Origin: Flavobacteriales bacterium
GTDB lineage: Bacteria > Bacteroidota > Bacteroidia > DT-38
Assembly: GCA_013214205.1 (NCBI GenBank)
Contig: JABSPQ010000228.1
Location: 1-49,138 of the forward strand
Direction: 5' to 3'
DNA: 49,138 nt
Positions within the stretch are counted from its first letter, which is position 1. Every line of letters begins with the position of its first letter. Below the pieces are notes generated by a model. It saw only the letters and a list, made by a program, of their open reading frames with translations. It searched no databases and was not told where the DNA came from. Positions 4,397 to 49,138 of the stretch are shown in pieces. The translations under genes were made by a program, and so were the position numbers.

Positions 4397-5782
4397 ATGG
4401 ATTTTGATGTTATAGTATTAGGTAGCGGCCCGGGTGGATATGTAGCAGCGATTCGAGCGTCGCAATTAGGCTTAAAAACCGCCATTGTAGAAAAGGAAAA
4501 CCTAGGAGGTATTTGTCTCAACTGGGGCTGTATACCTACAAAAGCACTGCTAAAAAGCGCACAAGTTTTCGAATATTTAAATCACGCTTCGGATTACGGA
4601 ATTAACGCCAAAGGCGTATCTGCCGATTTTTCTGCCATCGTAAAAAGAAGCAGAAATGTGGCCGATGGAATGAGTAAAGGCATTCAGTTTTTAATGAAAA
4701 AAAACGACATCGAAGTTATTACTGGCACAGGAACCATCACTGGAAACAATCAATTGCTGGTAGAAACCAAAGGAAATAAAGTTGAAGTAACTGCTAGTAA
4801 CATTATTGTTGCCACGGGAGCAAGGTCTCGAGAATTGCCAAATATTCCTCAAGATGGCAAATTAGTAATAGGATATCGCGAAGCCCTCACCTTAAAAAAG
4901 CAACCTAAATCGATGGTCGTTATTGGCTCTGGCGCTATTGGATCTGAGTTTGCTTACTTCTATCAAACACTAGGAACAGACGTTACTTTAATAGAATACA
5001 TGCCAAACATTGTTCCGGTAGAAGACAAAGATGTTTCTAGTCAACTTCAAAAATCATTCAAAAAATCGGGCATGACAGTAATGACCGGTGCCAGTGTAGA
5101 ATCTGTTGAAGTAGCTGGCAACAGAGCTAGAGTAACTGTTAAAACCGATAAAGGCGAAGAAACTATTGAAACAGATTTAGTTTTATCGGCTGTAGGAATT
5201 GCTGCAAACATCGAAAACATCGGCTTAGAAAACGTTGGCGTAATAGTAGATGGCGGTAAAATTTTAACCGATGAATATTATCAAACCAACATCCCAAGCA
5301 TCCATGCCATTGGCGATTGTGTTGGCGGGCAAGCTCTAGCACATGTTGCTTCGGCAGAAGGAATTATTTGCGTAGAAAAAATTGCAGGTAAAAGCCCAGA
5401 GGCATTAGATTATGGTAATATCCCAGGATGTACTTATTGTCAGCCCGAAATTGCGTCTGTTGGCTTAACAGAAGAAGCCGCTAAAAAAGAAGGACACGAA
5501 TTAAAAATTGGAAAATTCCCATTTGCAGCTTCAGGAAAAGCCTCTGCATCGGGACATAAAGATGGTTTTGTAAAATTAATTTTCGATGCTAAATATGGCG
5601 AGCTACTAGGTGCTCATATGATTGGAAGCAACGTAACGGAAATGATTGCAGAAATTGTTGCCATCAGAAAATTAGAAACAACAGGGCACGAATTAATTAA
5701 AACAGTTCACCCCCATCCAACCATGAGCGAGGCAATTATGGAAGCAGCCGCAGCAGCATATGGCGAGGTAATACATCTATAA
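4397..5782 (+). CDS. lpd: Dihydrolipoyl dehydrogenase (E3)
   Basis: This is the FAD-dependent E3 component that reoxidises the dihydrolipoyl groups of 2-oxoacid dehydrogenase complexes and the glycine cleavage system with NAD+. The 461-residue length is standard. Visible are the FAD dinucleotide fold GSGPGG at 9-14, the redox disulfide Cys40/Cys45 in GGICLNWGCIPTK, the NAD-binding GSGAIGSEF, the second FAD motif near AIGDC, and the C-terminal His440/Glu445 pair in HPHPTMSEA. The ATG at 4397 gives the usual N-terminus directly before the FAD fold. It is not linked to E1 or E2 genes here; a fused E1 lies about 24 kb downstream at 29880 and may share this subunit. Confidence 0.96.
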   Translation: MDFDVIVLGSGPGGYVAAIRASQLGLKTAIVEKENLGGICLNWGCIPTKALLKSAQVFEYLNHASDYGINAKGVSADFSAIVKRSRNVADGMSKGIQFLMKKNDIEVITGTGTITGNNQLLVETKGNKVEVTASNIIVATGARSRELPNIPQDGKLVIGYREALTLKKQPKSMVVIGSGAIGSEFAYFYQTLGTDVTLIEYMPNIVPVEDKDVSSQLQKSFKKSGMTVMTGASVESVEVAGNRARVTVKTDKGEETIETDLVLSAVGIAANIENIGLENVGVIVDGGKILTDEYYQTNIPSIHAIGDCVGGQALAHVASAEGIICVEKIAGKSPEALDYGNIPGCTYCQPEIASVGLTEEAAKKEGHELKIGKFPFAASGKASASGHKDGFVKLIFDAKYGELLGAHMIGSNVTEMIAEIVAIRKLETTGHELIKTVHPHPTMSEAIMEAAAAAYGEVIHL

Positions 5783-35964: not shown

Positions 35965-37176
35965 TTAGTTGGCTATAATTTCGAACTCGATACGACGGTT
36001 GTCGTGGCGGCCTTCTTCGGTATCGTTGGTAGACATAGGCTGAACTTCGCCATAACCTGCGTACTCCAATCTGTCTTTTTTGATGCTGTTGCTAATTAGA
36101 TATTGCACTACAGTTCGTGCTCTATTTTCCGAAAGTTTTTGGTTGTAAGTATCGCTACCCTTGCTATCTGTGTGCCCTCCTATTCTGATTCTTAAAGAAG
36201 GCATATCATTTAACAGCTTAACCAATTTTTGAAGCTCAGCATTTGAATCTGGTGTTAAATCGTATTTGTCGAAAGGGAAGAAAATATTTCTCAATACAAT
36301 CTTCTGACCAACCGTAAAACGCTTTAAATCGATGTCTTTAATAATTTCCTTAAACCCAACATCGTTATTCGGGATATTCACATTTTCTGAGTGAAACAAA
36401 TAATCTTCTTTATTTACCGAAATCCCATAATTTCGTCCAGCGGGCAGCGAAACTAAATATTTTCCTGATGTTCCATTCGACCTAAAGGTTGCCACTCTTT
36501 CGTTTTTAGCATTATCTATAATTTCGATTGTCGCCTCTAGCGGCTCACCAGTAGCCTTATCAGAAATAACACCTTTTAAAATTGTAAGGTTACTGGTTCT
36601 AATTTTGATTTTCTTGGCAATTACTTTCTCCTTTACCGGACTAGCTAGACTGGCCAATAAATTATCTTCTCCGTTAAGTATAGGCTCTTTCTCTGGCCCT
36701 AAAAACGTGATAACATAAATATCCATCACTCCAAAGCCATCCTTTTTAATTGACGCATAGTAACCTGTTTTACCACTGCCACCAATTACAAAAAAGTTGT
36801 CGTCGTGTGCACTATTAATTGGATATCCAATATTCTCTGGCACGCCCCATTGTTTGTTTTTGTAAGTCAACTTAAAAATATCATAACCCCCCATTGTATT
36901 GTGCCCCTTAGAACTAAAGTACAATGTTCTTCCATCGGGATGCATGTATACACAGTCCTCATCGTACTCTGTATTTATATTTGGCCCCAAGTTTCTGGCA
37001 GGGCCCCATTTCTCCTTATCCTCGTCCCAAAAACTCATATAGATATCATGCATGCCGTATGAATCCTCTATTTTATCACTAACGAAATACAGTATTTTAG
37101 AATCGAATGAATAACAGGCAGACGTTTCGTGAAACTCCGTATTGATGTTCTTTCCCAATTTTTCGGTCGAGACCAC
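35965..37176 (-). CDS. PorE-like OmpA family protein, C-terminal part (frameshifted)
   Basis: This frame holds the rest of a PorE-like protein whose first part is in another frame (37068-38027). It contains PD40/WD40-like propeller repeats (INTEFHETSACYSFDSK, YDEDCVYMHPDGRTLYFSS, SAHDDNFFVIGG). A carboxypeptidase-regulatory-like domain follows (LKGVISDKATGEPLEATIEI). The C-terminal OmpA domain (RNIFFPFDKYDLTPDS, GGHTDSKGSDTYNQKLSENRA) has the Asp/Arg residues that bind peptidoglycan. The nominal ATG at 37176 is artificial, since family sequence continues upstream in the other frame. T9SS protein PorE has the same TPR-propeller-CRD-OmpA order, so a role in anchoring secretion or envelope machinery is plausible if the gene is functional. 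Confidence 0.75.
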   Translation of the reverse strand: MVSTEKLGKNINTEFHETSACYSFDSKILYFVSDKIEDSYGMHDIYMSFWDEDKEKWGPARNLGPNINTEYDEDCVYMHPDGRTLYFSSKGHNTMGGYDIFKLTYKNKQWGVPENIGYPINSAHDDNFFVIGGSGKTGYYASIKKDGFGVMDIYVITFLGPEKEPILNGEDNLLASLASPVKEKVIAKKIKIRTSNLTILKGVISDKATGEPLEATIEIIDNAKNERVATFRSNGTSGKYLVSLPAGRNYGISVNKEDYLFHSENVNIPNNDVGFKEIIKDIDLKRFTVGQKIVLRNIFFPFDKYDLTPDSNAELQKLVKLLNDMPSLRIRIGGHTDSKGSDTYNQKLSENRARTVVQYLISNSIKKDRLEYAGYGEVQPMSTNDTEEGRHDNRRIEFEIIAN

Positions 37177-38027
37177 TCAGTTCCTTTCAGCTTACATTCA
37201 TACAAATCGCCATGACCAACCTTGTCATCAATATAAATCATCATCCTTTGCCCGTCGGGGGATAAACCTACACTAGCATCGTGGCCAGTGGTGTTAATTG
37301 GTTTGCTAATATTCTCAAGCGCTGTCCACTCCCCATCCACGTGATGTGAGATATAAACATCCTCCATATAATCATTTATACCCTCGTCTTTTTTACCACC
37401 TGTTGTTGCCGGTCTTCGCGAGGTAATCATCATCACAGATTCGTCGGCAGTAATTACGGGTGCATATTCTTGAAACGACGTATTAATAGATGCTCCAATA
37501 TTATCGATAAACACCCTTACAGGATTTTTTATGAGCTCTATTCCCGTCTTACATTCTTCTATATTCTTAGTTACCTTGGCTCTTCTGTTATTCGAAACTT
37601 TATCGGTATAAGTTTCTTGGTATTTCTCGAAGTGCTTAATCGCATCATCCAATTGCAGATTACAATGGTATGCTTGGCCTAAGTAATAAAGTATGTCGGG
37701 ATGAATATTGGGGTTTAACTTATAAGCACTTTGCAAATAGCTTAAGCATCTCTTATCTCTTTTTAGCAGCACGTAAGTTCTACCAATCTTAAAATTAAGT
37801 TTCGCATTGCTAGGGTTAAACAAAAAGGCAATTAAATAATGCTTAATGGCATTTTTATAACCAGGAAAACCGTAGAGAAATTGCATATCGCCTTGCTTAA
37901 TTTCCTTAACTGCTTCCTTAAATCCAGCTTTATCATCGGGGAAATTATCCTTTAAAAAATTCACGTTTTGTGAGTAACACTGAAGTGCTAAACATAAGGT
38001 GACAAATATTAAAAGTAATTTCTTCAT
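37068..38027 (-). CDS. PorE-like OmpA family protein, N-terminal part (frameshifted)
   Basis: The frame starts with a signal peptide (MKKLLLIFVTLCLALQCYSQ), then TPR units (NPSNAKLNFKIGRTYVLL, HPDILYYLGQAYHCNLQLDDAIKHFEKY) and the first propeller blades (YAPVITADESVMMITSRR, GHDASVGLSPDGQRMMIYID). After KGTEWSRP it loses family character (KNWERTSIRSF...), while the other frame resumes with EKLGKNINTEF. A single missing base near 37159-37168, beside a run of five A, explains this. The gene starts three bases after the stop of the upstream TPR gene, so both are one transcript. True inactivation and sequencing error cannot be told apart here. Confidence 0.75.
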   Translation of the reverse strand: MKKLLLIFVTLCLALQCYSQNVNFLKDNFPDDKAGFKEAVKEIKQGDMQFLYGFPGYKNAIKHYLIAFLFNPSNAKLNFKIGRTYVLLKRDKRCLSYLQSAYKLNPNIHPDILYYLGQAYHCNLQLDDAIKHFEKYQETYTDKVSNNRRAKVTKNIEECKTGIELIKNPVRVFIDNIGASINTSFQEYAPVITADESVMMITSRRPATTGGKKDEGINDYMEDVYISHHVDGEWTALENISKPINTTGHDASVGLSPDGQRMMIYIDDKVGHGDLYECKLKGTEWSRPKNWERTSIRSFTKRLPVIHSILKYCISLVIK

Positions 38028-42404: not shown

Positions 42405-42479
42405 GTATAAATGTTTATGCGAAGATATGTTTTTTCCTTATTCGCTACAGTTAGAGAGCAGGACGAAGAAATTATCTTA

Positions 42480-43352
42480 TTAGAGAAGTGCACCTTTGTT
42501 GCCTCTATATTCTGCTCCATCGCATCCAGTAGCGTCTATTATATAATAGTAAACACCAACAGCAGCCTCTTTACCGTTTTCTGTTATACCGTCCCAGCCT
42601 TCTTCTACTCCTGTCCATTCGTATGTTTTTTGACCTCTTGTATTGAAAATAGATCCTGTAAGTTCGCATATATTAACATGAGTCGTTACAAATTTGTCAT
42701 TGAAACCATCTCCATTTGGTGAGAACACATCTGGAATGGCGAAATATTCACGTGCTTCCACAACAATATGCTTAGATGCCTCATCTATACAAAAGCCATT
42801 GCGTGAAACTTCTAAAATAATCTCAAATTCAGTGTCGCGATAAACTTCACAAGGATGGTTTAATGTTTCCTGATCGGTTGCTATAGATTCTCCATCTATA
42901 AACCATGAGTTTTGATTGTAATCTCCATGGCTAGTATCAATAAATACTACATCAAAAGGTATTAATCCAAATGCATTTCCACCCTTTATTCGAATAAATG
43001 CTCTAATAGAATCTGGTCGAGGAACAAACTCGTAAATCATATATGACTTACAACCACTATCGTCTGTGGCGATTACCCAATAAGCGCTTGTGTTACTACC
43101 TGTTATTCCTGTTACTTGGTTCGAAGTTCCACTAAATGCATTCCATTCGAATGTGCACGAACCTGACCCTCCACTTATAGATGCATAAAGCACGCCATCG
43201 CTTGCTTCGTAGCAGGTAACGGTATCGTGAGTAAGCGTTGCAATAACAGGAGGACTACATTGGCCAAATACTATTGAGTTTGCCAATGTGAATACAATGG
43301 ATAATAAAATAATAATTTGATAAATCCTTTTGAATGGGCTAGGTACTAACAT
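42480..43352 (-). CDS. Mini-adhesin: signal peptide, one SprB-like repeat and CHU_C-type domain
   Basis: This 290-residue exported protein contains a signal peptide (YQIIILLSIVFTLANSIVFGQ), a single SprB-like repeat (DTVTCYEASDGVLYASISGG), a PKD-like middle part and a gliding-motility C-terminal (CHU_C) domain (AIPDVFSPNGDGFNDKF, GWDGITENGKEAAVGVYYYIID). From residue 35 to its end it is collinear with the last ~264 residues of the large adhesin encoded just upstream. Its C-terminus stops at NKGALL, whereas the large protein ends NKGHVTIIR, so the final T9SS sorting residues are absent. It would be exported to the periplasm by Sec; onward passage by T9SS is doubtful. Confidence 0.8.
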   Translation of the reverse strand: MLVPSPFKRIYQIIILLSIVFTLANSIVFGQCSPPVIATLTHDTVTCYEASDGVLYASISGGSGSCTFEWNAFSGTSNQVTGITGSNTSAYWVIATDDSGCKSYMIYEFVPRPDSIRAFIRIKGGNAFGLIPFDVVFIDTSHGDYNQNSWFIDGESIATDQETLNHPCEVYRDTEFEIILEVSRNGFCIDEASKHIVVEAREYFAIPDVFSPNGDGFNDKFVTTHVNICELTGSIFNTRGQKTYEWTGVEEGWDGITENGKEAAVGVYYYIIDATGCDGAEYRGNKGALL

Positions 43353-43389
43353 TTGGAGATGGATGAGCGTTTAGTCTAACGTAAATTAA

Positions 43390-43429
43390 AACATTGTGAC
43401 AACTAATTTACATTATCTGTCACAATGTT
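43390..43429 (-). terminator. Perfect 12-base inverted repeat after the large adhesin gene
   Basis: Arms 43390-43401 and 43418-43429 are perfectly complementary (AACATTGTGACA / TGTCACAATGTT) with a 16-base loop. The element starts 27 bases after the adhesin stop on the minus strand and is followed there by TTTAATTTAC, so a terminator is likely. Because it also lies 38 bases before the mini-adhesin start, an operator role is a real alternative. Confidence 0.55.
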
Positions 43430-43455
43430 CAATTACATTTTTCATAAAGTACTTA

Positions 43456-46400
43456 CTACCTAATTATTGTAACGTGACCTTTATTTCCGAGGTATTCTTT
43501 ACCCTCACAGCCTATTGCATCAATTAAGTAAAAGTAAACTCCATCAGGTACTTCTTCACCAGCAAACGTTCTACCGTCCCATCCTGTTTCTACTCCTTCC
43601 CATGCAGATAATTTTTCACCCCATCTATTAAAAATCTGTCCGGTTAACGAGCAAATGTTAATATAAGAAACCATGAATTTCTCGTTGAATTCATCGCCGT
43701 TTGGCGTAAATACATCCGGAATTGACAAAAATGAACCTGCTTCAACTAATACAATTAGTGTATCTGTACTGGTACAATAACCATTTCTAGATACTTCCAA
43801 AATATATTCGAATGAAATTGTTGTTTGAGTTACAAGCGTATTCGTTATAGTATCCTCACCAACCTCTTCAACCAAGCCGTCTAAATACCATATTATAGTA
43901 TTGTAGTAATCGAAATGGCTCGAATCTACAAGCTTAACATCAAAAGGTGTAGAACCAAATGGCTCGCCCACTAATCTAATATGTGCTCGGATAGAATCTG
44001 GTCGTAATATATATTCGAACAAAGTATCGATAACACATTCGTTGCCATCTCTAATTATTACCCAGTAAGCACTATCGTTTAAATTATCGCCACTTATGTT
44101 CGATACCGAATTATCTGAAGCGTATGTTGTGTCGCCAGTAAACCATTCGTATGAAAACGAACCAGCTCCGCCTGTTGCATAGGCATATAACACAGCATTC
44201 TCAGCTTCATAACAAGTAACTGTGTCGTGATCTAACGATGCTACAATAGGCGTTAATGGGTCTATATATGCAGAGCTTATATCCGTACAACCTTTTATAT
44301 CGGTTGCTGTAACGTTGTATGTATTTCCGCCTAAACCAGTAGCGGTATCCGTTACAGATGTGTTATCGTCATCCCAAGCATAGGTATAGGCACTTCCATT
44401 TCCTCCAACTGAAGACGCATATACTTGACCAGTTTCTCCTCCATAACAAAGGATGAAACCATCAACTGCAGAAGTAATCATTGTATCTGGTTCTGCAACT
44501 ATCGTATCATGTCCGTTATCGCATTTAAGAATATCTACAACGGTTATCGAAATATCATTTGCCGATAAGCCCGTAATAGTAAATATACCTTCATCATCCT
44601 GACTTTCAACAGTAGAGACTCCACCTGTTATCCATTCGTAAGAATAAGGTGTTGTGCCTCCAGTAATTTCTACTTCAACCTCTCCATCACTAAGACCATA
44701 ACATGAAACACTGTCCATTAAAATGAATCTAACTGTAGGTGATAATGGATTTGCTAGCGCCTCTTCTGCAGTTGCAGTACAACCATTATCGTCGGTAACA
44801 ACAACTTCGTGATTTTCATTTGTTAAGTTGGTTGGTGTAGCAACACTGTTGGTAATAGGCGACCATGCATAAATGTAATCTCCCGCAACAGTTCCGCCCA
44901 CAGGGTAAGCAGTTAATGTTCCGTTTTGCTCTCCACACTCTGAAGGCACGCCATCATCTAATGCAACTGATAACGCTGGAGGATCGGTAAGTGTAGTAGT
45001 ACACATTTCAACACAACCATTTGCATCGGTTACAGTTACTGTATAAGTACCAGATCCTAAACTATCAGCTGTTGCAGTTGTTTGCGAATCTGAATCGCTC
45101 CAAATGTAACTGTATCCTGCTGTTCCATCAGATGCAACAACGGATGCAGAACCATCTGTTGCTCCAAAACACTGTGGGTCAACAAAGTCACACTGAGCAT
45201 CTAAAGGTGCTGCAGGCTCTGTTATTATATATGAATCTGTAAACTCTTCACCCAAGAAATCTGAAATCGTTACTGAATAAGTTCCAGCAGGTAAATCAGT
45301 TAATATTGAATCGGCAAGACTAGGACTTGGTAAAGCAGGATCCCACGTAAAAATGTAAGGAGGACCATTACCTCTTATTACCATGGATAAATCTATCGAT
45401 CCTGCTTCATCTCCAAAACAAGGATTATGAACTAAGATTGGCTCCCATGTTTGAGCAGGGTAGCCCAATACTTCTACGCAATCGTTTGCTTTACAACCAT
45501 TGGCATCTGTAACAGTTGCGCAATAGATGTTATTATTTAAGCCAAAGATGGTATCATTTACAGAACTGCCATTATCCCATTCATAAGTGTAATCTGCTGG
45601 TAAAAGACCTGCACCACCTGAAGCAACTACTTTAACCTCTCCTTCAAAGCAAATGTCTTCGCAATTTGCATGAGTATTTACACTTGCATTGGCAAATACT
45701 TCTGCTGGATCAACTAAATTAATTGTACGCGTTATGGTACACAAATTAGCATCTGATATTATTACATCGTAAGTACCAGCGGTTAAACCTGTAAGGTTTT
45801 GATCAACTCCACTAGGTGTCCATAAATAGGTGTACGAACTACTATTACCACCTGTAGGGTTTGTTAAACTTGTTGTACCATCGGAAGCTTCAAAACAAAG
45901 TGGATCGGTACCGCTAATTTCAGTATCAATCTCTGTTGGCTCTACCAATTGAGTTGTTTGAGCGCCTGTACACATATTGTCATCTGTTACAGTAATTATA
46001 TAATCTACTGTACCTGTAACATCCACATTACTCTGACTTGCTCCCCAAAGCACATCATTCCAATTGTAAGTGAATCCTGTTGGATCTCCCGTTCCGCCTG
46101 TTGCAACGGCTAACAGCTCACCAAATGAATCTGGTCCAAAACAACTAGGGTTTGTTGGAGAAGTTACAACTGTAACAGCATCTGGTTCGGTAATTATTAA
46201 GATTTGAGTAGCCTGACAACCATCTACGTCCGTTATTGTAACTTCTAATGGTGAATCGATTATGCTAAGACCTGTTGCCGAATACAAACCAGTACCAAGA
46301 GCAGTAGTGCCTCCTACTGGTGTTCCGCCAGACCATGTAATCGCAAAATCAATATTGCCCGAAACAATCTCGATTTCTCCGAATGCATCACTTTCTCCAT

Positions 46401-49138
46401 TACATGAAACCATGCCATTGTCGTTCCAAACTATTTGCGGTGCACCTGGATCACTAATGCTAACAGGTACTTCTAAGAAACATAAGTTTGCATCAAATAC
46501 CGTTACAATATAGTTCCCTACTGCTAACCCTGTAGCCAAAGAGTTTGTTCCACTACCACCAGCTGCATCCCATAAATATGTGTATGGGGCTAATCCTCCA
46601 CTTACTTGGTCAACAGTAGATGTATCTATCCAAGCCGTACCATTTGCATCACCACAAGTGGCTGGTGTTGTTAACTCGGTAGCAGCAACAATCAAAGGAT
46701 CTGTTAGAGTTTCATCGTCAACAGCAGTACATCCTTGCGAATCAGTAACAGTAACATCAGTTAAACCTTCGTCTAAGCCAGAAATACTATCATCTGTTGT
46801 CAAAAGATCAGACCAGAGATAAGTATATATAGGTGTGCCACCTGAAACAGTAGTTTCCATTGTACCATCCATTGCACTATTACAAGTGGGATCTACTGGA
46901 TTTATTATTGTAATTACTAACAAAGAAGGATCGAATAATTCGAATTCATCGCTATCTGTACATCCCTTATCATCTGTAACAGTAACGGTATACAAACCAG
47001 ACGCAACAACACCTATATTGTTGCGTTCTGTACCAACGGTTCCACTCCACTCATAAGTATACCCCCCAGCAACAGTACCACCGCTACCAACAGCCGTTAA
47101 GTTTCCATCGCTAGATCCGAAACAAAGTGGATCAACACCATCTGCAATTACAACTACTACAGTTGGTTCTTCTAAATCAAAATCAGTTTCTGCAGTACAT
47201 CCGCGAACATCTTTAATGACAATACCATGCAAGCCTGCAGCCAAATCAGATTCTGTATATATTCCTGAATTTTGATTGGGTATTGTTCCGGAAGTCGCCG
47301 TTGTAATAGAATAATCGGGGGTTCCTCCACTGTACGTAAATGTTATAGAACCGTTTGCATCGCCATTACATAATGGCTCTATATGGCTTGCATAAACAAT
47401 ATCTAAAACCAATGGTTCGGTTAAGTTTACTGTACATGTACCTGTTAATGTAGGTGTGCCTTCGTCGGTAACTGTTACGGTATAATCAGGAGAAAACAAG
47501 TCGCATAAATTTGCTGTTGACTGATGTGTTCCTCCTAATCCTAGACCTCCTTGAAAATCATTGCTGCTATTATCCCATGCAACAGAAAAGGATGTTCCAC
47601 TGGCCAAATTACCAATAGTAACTGTAGCTTGTCCATCGCAAACGCCAGGACAAGACGGTTCCACATCTACAACTATAGAACACGTAGGTGCTACCGGACA
47701 CCAAATATCTACTGTTGCGGTTGCTGTACATGAATTATCGTCGGTTGCTGTAACAGTATATGTTACGAAACTATTAGAACCTGTTAAGCCCGATATTGCA
47801 GCGTCAGTTTCATCTGCATTGCTCCACACATAATCAGGTGGACCTGCGCCTGGTTGAAAATCAATAAGCCTAATAGACCAATCGTCTAAAACACCATCGT
47901 TCATTTCTCCATTAACCATCACTAATTGCCATATTCCATTCGGATCACAACCTGTTAATGGACCGCCAATTTCGTCAAGAGCTCCACCTTCTGGCACATA
48001 AGACCCATCGGTAAAATCTCCATTGGCACCAGTAATATCAGTTCCTGCTCCAATAGTAAAACATACATCGGTAAAAGTGTCTCCACCAGGATTATTAGCA
48101 GATTTCAATTCTAATGTTCCTCCACATGGAGAAATCAATGTCATTGATACTTTTTCTATTTTATCTTTAGGAACTGTAGACACATCAATACAGACCTGTG
48201 CCACGGTTGATTCATCCGTTAAAGCCAACGCCAAGTCTGATACAGTAATATCAAAAGTAGTAGTAGCTTTTCCTGTAATATCACCACCTACACCATCAAA
48301 ATCAGTAGGAGTTACCACGTCTAAATATGTTCCGCCACTAATCCATGCAACAGAAGCAGTTCCATCATTATCGCCACAAACTGTTTCGTTTATACTTGAT
48401 GTATTGATGATTATTTCCTCAGGATCGGTTAATACTGCTTCTGCGGTACTAGTACAATTATTAGCGTCCATAACAGTTACAGTGTAAGTTAGACCAGGAG
48501 CTTGGGCACCAGCAAGTGCTTTATCGCTACTATCTACTGAGGCACCACCGCCCCAATTCCATGTAAATGGCGCTAAACCACCAGTAACCGAACCATGAAC
48601 TTCCCCATCAAGAATACCAGGACAACTAGGATCTACAACATGATCTACAAGTGCAGTAACACCTCCAGGAGGAATTACAATGTATTCGCATGTGGATGTA
48701 ACATCAGCATTATCGGTTACAGTAACGGTATGCGTACCTATACATAAATTATAATCATCGGCTGTTCCTAAATCAGGAAGACCACCTGTAGCGTTAAACC
48801 CTGACGACCAAACAACAGACAGCGGTTCGGTAGTTGTACATGGAGGTAAAAACACTTGAACTTGTAGATCGGCACCAGCCTGACCAGCTGGCCCACCTGT
48901 ACCACAGGCGCCTCCACATATTAATGGTTTTATTTCAGTAATAATACAACTTAAACTAGGTGGAGGAGGAACTAATATAACTCCTTCATCTCCTTGTTCT
49001 GCACACCAATTAACACCGGCTGCTTGACTTCCATATTTTGAACCGCCTCCTTCGTCCCAATACATACCTGCAATACCACCAGTAACATCGGTAGTTGCTC
49101 CAGCGGGCGCCATAATTACACCACCACCACCACCACCA
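43456..49138 (-). CDS. Large SprB-repeat surface adhesin with CHU_C type B T9SS domain (5' partial)
   Basis: The frame is open to the window end, so the N-terminus is missing; at least 1,893 residues are visible. Numbering from the Met codon at 49111-49113, it starts Gly-rich, then carries about 17 SprB-like repeats of roughly 80-90 residues (pattern C.G..DG ... SGGTxxYxYxWS ... GxYTVTVTDANGC). Near 286-419 there is a proprotein-convertase P-domain-like module (CIDVSTVPKDKIEKVSMTLISP ... GIWQLVMVNGEMNDGVLDDWSI). A CHU_C domain lies at about 1797-1885 (SIPDVFTPNGDEFNEKF, GWDGRTFAGEEVPDGVYFYLID) and ends NKGHVTIIR, the type B T9SS sorting signal. SprB-type proteins are mobile surface adhesins used in gliding or attachment; gliding by this organism is inference. 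Confidence 0.9.
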   Translation of the reverse strand, partial: GGGGGGVIMAPAGATTDVTGGIAGMYWDEGGGSKYGSQAAGVNWCAEQGDEGVILVPPPPSLSCIITEIKPLICGGACGTGGPAGQAGADLQVQVFLPPCTTTEPLSVVWSSGFNATGGLPDLGTADDYNLCIGTHTVTVTDNADVTSTCEYIVIPPGGVTALVDHVVDPSCPGILDGEVHGSVTGGLAPFTWNWGGGASVDSSDKALAGAQAPGLTYTVTVMDANNCTSTAEAVLTDPEEIIINTSSINETVCGDNDGTASVAWISGGTYLDVVTPTDFDGVGGDITGKATTTFDITVSDLALALTDESTVAQVCIDVSTVPKDKIEKVSMTLISPCGGTLELKSANNPGGDTFTDVCFTIGAGTDITGANGDFTDGSYVPEGGALDEIGGPLTGCDPNGIWQLVMVNGEMNDGVLDDWSIRLIDFQPGAGPPDYVWSNADETDAAISGLTGSNSFVTYTVTATDDNSCTATATVDIWCPVAPTCSIVVDVEPSCPGVCDGQATVTIGNLASGTSFSVAWDNSSNDFQGGLGLGGTHQSTANLCDLFSPDYTVTVTDEGTPTLTGTCTVNLTEPLVLDIVYASHIEPLCNGDANGSITFTYSGGTPDYSITTATSGTIPNQNSGIYTESDLAAGLHGIVIKDVRGCTAETDFDLEEPTVVVVIADGVDPLCFGSSDGNLTAVGSGGTVAGGYTYEWSGTVGTERNNIGVVASGLYTVTVTDDKGCTDSDEFELFDPSLLVITIINPVDPTCNSAMDGTMETTVSGGTPIYTYLWSDLLTTDDSISGLDEGLTDVTVTDSQGCTAVDDETLTDPLIVAATELTTPATCGDANGTAWIDTSTVDQVSGGLAPYTYLWDAAGGSGTNSLATGLAVGNYIVTVFDANLCFLEVPVSISDPGAPQIVWNDNGMVSCNGESDAFGEIEIVSGNIDFAITWSGGTPVGGTTALGTGLYSATGLSIIDSPLEVTITDVDGCQATQILIITEPDAVTVVTSPTNPSCFGPDSFGELLAVATGGTGDPTGFTYNWNDVLWGASQSNVDVTGTVDYIITVTDDNMCTGAQTTQLVEPTEIDTEISGTDPLCFEASDGTTSLTNPTGGNSSSYTYLWTPSGVDQNLTGLTAGTYDVIISDANLCTITRTINLVDPAEVFANASVNTHANCEDICFEGEVKVVASGGAGLLPADYTYEWDNGSSVNDTIFGLNNNIYCATVTDANGCKANDCVEVLGYPAQTWEPILVHNPCFGDEAGSIDLSMVIRGNGPPYIFTWDPALPSPSLADSILTDLPAGTYSVTISDFLGEEFTDSYIITEPAAPLDAQCDFVDPQCFGATDGSASVVASDGTAGYSYIWSDSDSQTTATADSLGSGTYTVTVTDANGCVEMCTTTLTDPPALSVALDDGVPSECGEQNGTLTAYPVGGTVAGDYIYAWSPITNSVATPTNLTNENHEVVVTDDNGCTATAEEALANPLSPTVRFILMDSVSCYGLSDGEVEVEITGGTTPYSYEWITGGVSTVESQDDEGIFTITGLSANDISITVVDILKCDNGHDTIVAEPDTMITSAVDGFILCYGGETGQVYASSVGGNGSAYTYAWDDDNTSVTDTATGLGGNTYNVTATDIKGCTDISSAYIDPLTPIVASLDHDTVTCYEAENAVLYAYATGGAGSFSYEWFTGDTTYASDNSVSNISGDNLNDSAYWVIIRDGNECVIDTLFEYILRPDSIRAHIRLVGEPFGSTPFDVKLVDSSHFDYYNTIIWYLDGLVEEVGEDTITNTLVTQTTISFEYILEVSRNGYCTSTDTLIVLVEAGSFLSIPDVFTPNGDEFNEKFMVSYINICSLTGQIFNRWGEKLSAWEGVETGWDGRTFAGEEVPDGVYFYLIDAIGCEGKEYLGNKGHVTIIR
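47857..48258 (-). other. P-domain-like module inside the large adhesin
   Basis: Residues about 286-419 of the large adhesin (numbered from the Met codon at 49111-49113) read FDITVSDLALALTD ... CIDVSTV ... ISPCGGTLELKS ... GIWQLVMVNG ... DDWSIRLID. This is the jelly-roll layout of proprotein convertase P-domains. The flanks are the two halves of one SprB repeat: CGDNDGTASVAWISGGT before it and DYVWSNADE ... YTVTATDDNSC after it. The module therefore interrupts a repeat and does not lie between repeats. Confidence 0.65.

Follow-up and report, generated by a model that had tools for sequence, protein, structure and literature searches.

A 290-residue neighbor of a giant SprB-repeat adhesin, plausibly a shrunken orphan type B protein with a weakened sorting signal

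The window analyzed here, 49,138 nucleotides of a Flavobacteriales bacterium, is an entire contig (G000:C144). Near one end, a gene for a 290-residue protein follows the gene for a giant SprB-repeat adhesin on the same strand (Table 1). Because the window is the whole contig, the giant is open upstream and its N-terminus is cut off; the remainder carries 10 SprB stretches and a CHU_C domain according to Pfam. The gap between the two genes holds a hairpin followed by a T-rich stretch, which is absent from the listing of a simple terminator scan. This hairpin is probably the terminator of the giant, and its strength together with the T-rich tail suggests that the two genes are transcribed separately. 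Matches to a Bacteroidota-type promoter consensus ahead of the small gene scored no higher than those of random 150-mers. Downstream of the small gene lie an AhpC/TSA-like gene and a short OMP gene. Elsewhere in the window (35965-38027, reverse strand), a PorE/CHU_0125-like OmpA gene is split into two overlapping frames by a frameshift that is either real or from assembly.

Table 1. Coordinates of the small gene, its neighborhood, and the passenger-less type B proteins. Positions are those of the window unless a contig or locus is named.
Feature	Position	Strand	Basis or remark
Small gene, 290 aa	42480..43352	(-)	Signal peptide + SprB-like + PKD-like + degenerate type B sorting domain
Signal peptide, residues 1-30 (ending NSIVFGQ, next residue C)	43263..43352	(-)	Sec type, judged by eye
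SprB-like Ig domain, residues 34-112	43017..43253	(-)	Alignment; PF13573 below cut-off; model strands 37-108
PKD-like Ig domain, residues 113-203	42744..43016	(-)	Alignment; model strands 120-198
CHU_C / type B T9SS sorting domain, residues 204-290	42483..42743	(-)	Profile searches
Out-of-frame TSLIR-stop where siblings read VTIIR-stop	42472..42489	(-)	209 of 200,000 window 40-mers do as well
Hairpin then T-rich stretch in the gap between the genes	43378..43439	(-)	-24.7 kcal/mol, z -4.7, 0 of 200 shuffles
Giant SprB-repeat adhesin, 5'-truncated at contig end	43456..49113	(-)	ORF and profile matches
Homologous terminal module of the neighboring giant, 265 aa	43459..44253	(-)	Search, alignment, structure model
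Bare type B proteins	G000:C303 10651-10974 (-), L128 4649-4975; L136 1968-2339 (-); L137 1835-2206 (-)

The open reading frame of the small protein is real and bears the motifs quoted in an earlier note on this DNA, which had described a signal peptide fused directly to a paralog of the giant's terminal module with all but one repeat dropped. This description holds: reading frame and alignment together place the signal peptide directly against the terminal module with one repeat left, and residues 34-288 are truly paralogous to the C-terminus of the giant, matching far better than chance allows (255 residues, E 1.7e-77). We recognized the Sec signal peptide by eye and by comparison with the signal peptides of related giants in the genome (here, siblings), and the mature protein starts in the alignment where the last repeat of the giants starts. 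The Pfam profile for CHU_C (PF13585) matches the C-terminus with 58.3 bits, above its curated cut-off of 27. The SprB profile (PF13573) reaches 16.3 bits against a cut-off of 28, and the region aligns as homologous to SprB-bearing siblings; the label "PKD" for the domain that follows was given by eye, with no Pfam PKD match. An AlphaFold2 model (mean pLDDT 79) predicts three beta domains at residues 37-108, 120-198, and 203-286. Its top Foldseek match is GhpA, the grappling hook protein of Aureispira, likewise a surface protein with a chain of Ig-like domains, but at 11-14% identity and a low global TM the two have only the fold class in common.

The small protein and the C-terminus of its neighbor share 50% identity over 255 aligned residues, and the neighbor is far from the only relative. 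A genome search found the full module of about 260 residues, at 47-55% identity to the small protein, at 11 other places, all of them ends of large frames or contig-edge fragments, as well as partial copies. The module forms the end of at least 10 other large proteins, in a family of at least 12 members including the small one. When the modules are aligned, the small protein shares 47-54% identity with every sibling, compared to 56-84% between siblings. Its neighbor ranks only 8th among its module matches in the genome search and is the second least similar sibling by aligned identity (49.6%), so the claim that the small gene copies the module of its own neighbor finds no support. The best module match is instead C47, whose terminal module belongs to the same gene as the N-terminal part of a giant on C431: the two contigs overlap by exactly 122 nt, and a single gene has been split by assembly (L126, L094). 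The signal peptide also matches that of the C431 giant best, with a score of 49 compared to 43 for the next among 98 other signal-like starts. The small gene perhaps derives from a C431/C47-like giant, a weak suggestion drawn from these two best matches, the C431 part of which depends on a signal peptide of short length. C47 also encodes a 678-residue protein (L094 4335-6371) with the SprB and PKD-like domains of the family and a type A tail in place of type B (TIGR04183, 30.2 bits; cut-off, 23), an apparent swap of sorting domains.

Members of this family usually stand in tandem runs. C341 holds four giant genes within 17.6 kb; three carry the module, and the fourth runs off the contig. Two genes of the family stand on C76. 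The adjacency of the small gene and the giant therefore needs no special cause, and the best explanation is another tandem run of the family rather than a functional pair. One giant in the C341 run (L095 910-6492) has a single in-frame stop at 4558-4560. Several short frames considered as further small members were rejected: the 590-aa ORF of C341 is the C-terminal part of a giant that an in-frame stop interrupts, and the 417-aa frame of C47, the 125-aa frame of C341, and the 162-aa CHU_C frames of C321 and C431 are contig edges.

The earlier note had also asked whether relatives keep the same small-plus-large pair. We found none beside the AhpC/TSA-like orthologs of four class members, in which no type B gene lies upstream. 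In the only genome from the same genus, a close copy of the AhpC-like gene is missing, the locus is absent, and the modules lie at contig edges, which makes the pairing test negative but weak. Small type B proteins as such are ordinary in the class: G006, G007, and G016 encode proteins of 243-268 residues with a signal peptide, a type B domain, and between them one SprB repeat or two, a layout similar to that of the protein studied here. A PorP gene adjoins each of them, accompanied by a PorE-like gene in two of the three cases, and their sorting motifs are standard, whereas the small protein here has neither an adjoining PorP gene nor standard motifs. PG1035 of Porphyromonas gingivalis is likewise a type B CTD protein but is part of a PorE-PorP-PG1035 complex (PMC9143113). 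With small type B proteins this common, the small protein matters little by itself. It does provide a natural contrast, a free-standing orphan type B module that keeps its Ig part while its sorting signal drifts, next to at least 11 siblings that keep the signal.

The genome encodes the T9SS machinery, with SprA recognized at 2,470 bits, and holds 40 CHU_C domains and about 20 PorP/SprF loci. About ten PorP genes lie directly beside CHU_C genes, none of which belongs to the family of the small protein. There is no PorP match on contig C144, and the PorP gene nearest to any family member stands by the C220 giant, convergent and about 2.5 kb away. Two PorP/SprF genes without an adjoining type B gene, L132 4337-5299 (C40) and L133 4668-5585 (C375), are candidates for a shared orphan shuttle. 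A precedent comes from Flavobacterium johnsoniae, in which three orphan substrates with type B domains more than 44% identical use one unlinked shuttle (PMC12618676). By analogy with these orphans, the module of about 260 residues would serve all members for export and anchoring and be read by a single unlinked shuttle; PorP-like proteins are reported to anchor type B proteins as well (PMC9143113), and the minimal type B signal reaches beyond the conserved domain (PMC12618676). Like the present family, the F. johnsoniae orphans resemble one another in their type B domains, with no shuttle gene linked to them. The family here differs in its size (at least 12 members), in its longer shared module, and in having only candidates for the shuttle (the PorP genes of C40 and C375). 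It hints at how large orphan type B families can grow outside Flavobacterium. The gliding adhesin SprB of F. johnsoniae, which is served by the shuttle SprF, has the same order, with SprB repeats ahead of a type B sorting domain. The small protein departs from SprB in having one repeat, altered sorting residues, and no adjoining sprF-like gene, and its layout resembles the experimental fusions of a signal peptide, a reporter, and the SprB C-terminus.

The sorting domain of the small protein is the part that sets it apart from its siblings. The type B profile TIGR04131 (cut-off, 35 bits) scores 29.4 bits on the whole protein and 32.6 bits on the domain alone, while the siblings scored range from 43.5 to 50.4 bits, leaving the small protein as the only one below the cut-off. 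The usual R238/W239, R256, and P264/D265 are missing along with the last strand; T238/R239 stand in for the R and W of RWG, and A264/V265 for the P and D of PDG. R238 and W239 belong to the columns invariant in the other modules and reach at least 90% conservation when 28 sequences from across the class are aligned. Where a sorting-domain column is otherwise invariant, the small protein departs from it at 27% of positions, compared to 0-10% for siblings. Its protein distance to siblings in this domain is 0.48, about twice that among siblings (0.19-0.28), yet its distance of 0.75 in the Ig part falls within their range of 0.49-0.78. The ratio of the two distances exceeded the largest sibling ratio in 92% of bootstrap replicates. 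Gene conversion may have homogenized the siblings, and any unconverted copy would then look fast.

The small protein also stops four residues short, ending in NKGALL compared to NKG.VTIIR in siblings. VT(I/L)IR-stop closes every sibling module as well as three modules of the single genome from the same genus. The last strand covers residues 281-286 of the model and is followed by disorder, compared to a long strand at 253-263 in the model of the giant's module. A comparable tail is nevertheless present out of frame at the same place (Table 1). Most simply, the last codons probably carry a frameshift of one base, either recent or an assembly error. Because the VTIIR-like tail can still be read out of frame, its loss is not counted as evidence for adaptation or for long decay. 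The distances and rates of the small protein were recomputed without the tail codons after this finding.

With moderate confidence, we take the small protein for an old member of a lineage-specific family of orphan type B T9SS adhesins, reduced in size and left with a weakened sorting signal. A giant, possibly one like C431/C47, would have lost everything between its signal peptide and its last module, and the product would be sent through Sec to the periplasm. The loss of residues kept by siblings and the roughly twofold faster divergence of the sorting domain suggest that T9SS export is probably poor or nil. Any function it has would then probably be that of a small Ig-domain protein, either periplasmic or weakly exposed on the surface. 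The contrast with its siblings allows one to ask which residues the unlinked shuttle reads. The CHU_C match of 58 bits and a predicted fold that is intact except for the last strand speak against a worn signal, however, and export may survive.

The CHU_C match also favors a less likely alternative, that the gene product is a small but functional type B adhesin, which leaves the cell by T9SS through the shared orphan shuttle of the family and is displayed as a short surface protein, its altered sorting residues being tolerated. A low w overall (see below) and the commonness of 243-268-residue SprB and type B proteins in the class agree with it, and the TSLIR-stop found out of frame suggests either that the tail was lost only recently or that it is not truly lost. 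The lost RWG and PDG residues argue against it, and TIGR04131 stays below its cut-off even with the tail read through (33.1 bits). Each of five type B CTD motifs is moreover needed for SprB export in F. johnsoniae (PMC12618676), and we infer that the residues lost here map to those motifs.

The earlier note left room for a decaying copy and proposed dN/dS as the check, so that absent pairing together with neutral divergence would point to a mere decaying duplicate. In a codon model of our own, the branch of the small gene received its own w. For the whole module, w is 0.108 on that branch against a background of 0.109, with w=1 rejected (2dlnL 35). The SprB and PKD part alone also rejects w=1, with 2dlnL of 26 against one shared w and 32-35 against a free w. 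Pairing was thus absent in a weak test, but divergence is not neutral; w of about 0.11 contradicts neutral decay of the module as a whole, although the low value may reflect an earlier time, when the gene had not yet shrunk. Only the sorting domain looks relaxed, at w 0.14 compared to 0.02, a borderline result (2dlnL about 4.6) for which sibling branches deviate as much in the opposite direction because synonymous sites are saturated.

A duplicate on its way to becoming a pseudogene, with the 3' frameshift as an early lesion, is a doubtful account of the gene. It draws on the probable frameshift in the last codons, the faster sorting domain, and other broken genes, namely the split PorE-like gene nearby and the C341 giant with an in-frame stop within the family. 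Opposed to it are the rejection of w=1 for both the whole module and the Ig part, an intact signal peptide, and 290 codons without an internal stop at saturated synonymous divergence.

Least probable by far is the proposal that the small protein acts on the giant or the shuttle, whether as a cap or competitor, both named in the earlier note, or as a plug or decoy; we found no positive evidence for such a role. The small protein is almost nothing but the module that a shuttle should recognize, and PorA, a small CTD protein that relays a signal to PorXY-SigP, influences the expression of T9SS genes in P. gingivalis (PMC7712824). PorA is a mere analogy, however, with another N-terminal domain and binding to PorV, and the sorting domain that a decoy would need is the most worn part of the small protein. 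A dedicated partner is not borne out either: no co-conservation with the giant was found in the relatives searched, tandem runs are normal for the family, no PorP/SprF gene is adjacent, the neighbor is not the closest sibling, and a probable terminator separates the two genes.

The proposal can also draw on proteins that are reduced further. Bare type B proteins of 108-123 residues, consisting of a signal peptide and an intact type B domain without a passenger, are encoded in this genome (C303), in G013, and in G012 (Table 1). It is conceivable, if very improbable, that passenger-less type B proteins, these and the small protein alike, occupy or gauge PorP/SprF shuttles and so regulate the export or anchoring of giant adhesins. 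In G012, PorP and PorE-like genes of the same strand lie just ahead of the bare type B gene (L137), and all three bare proteins pass the TIGR04131 cut-off, with 52-56 bits.
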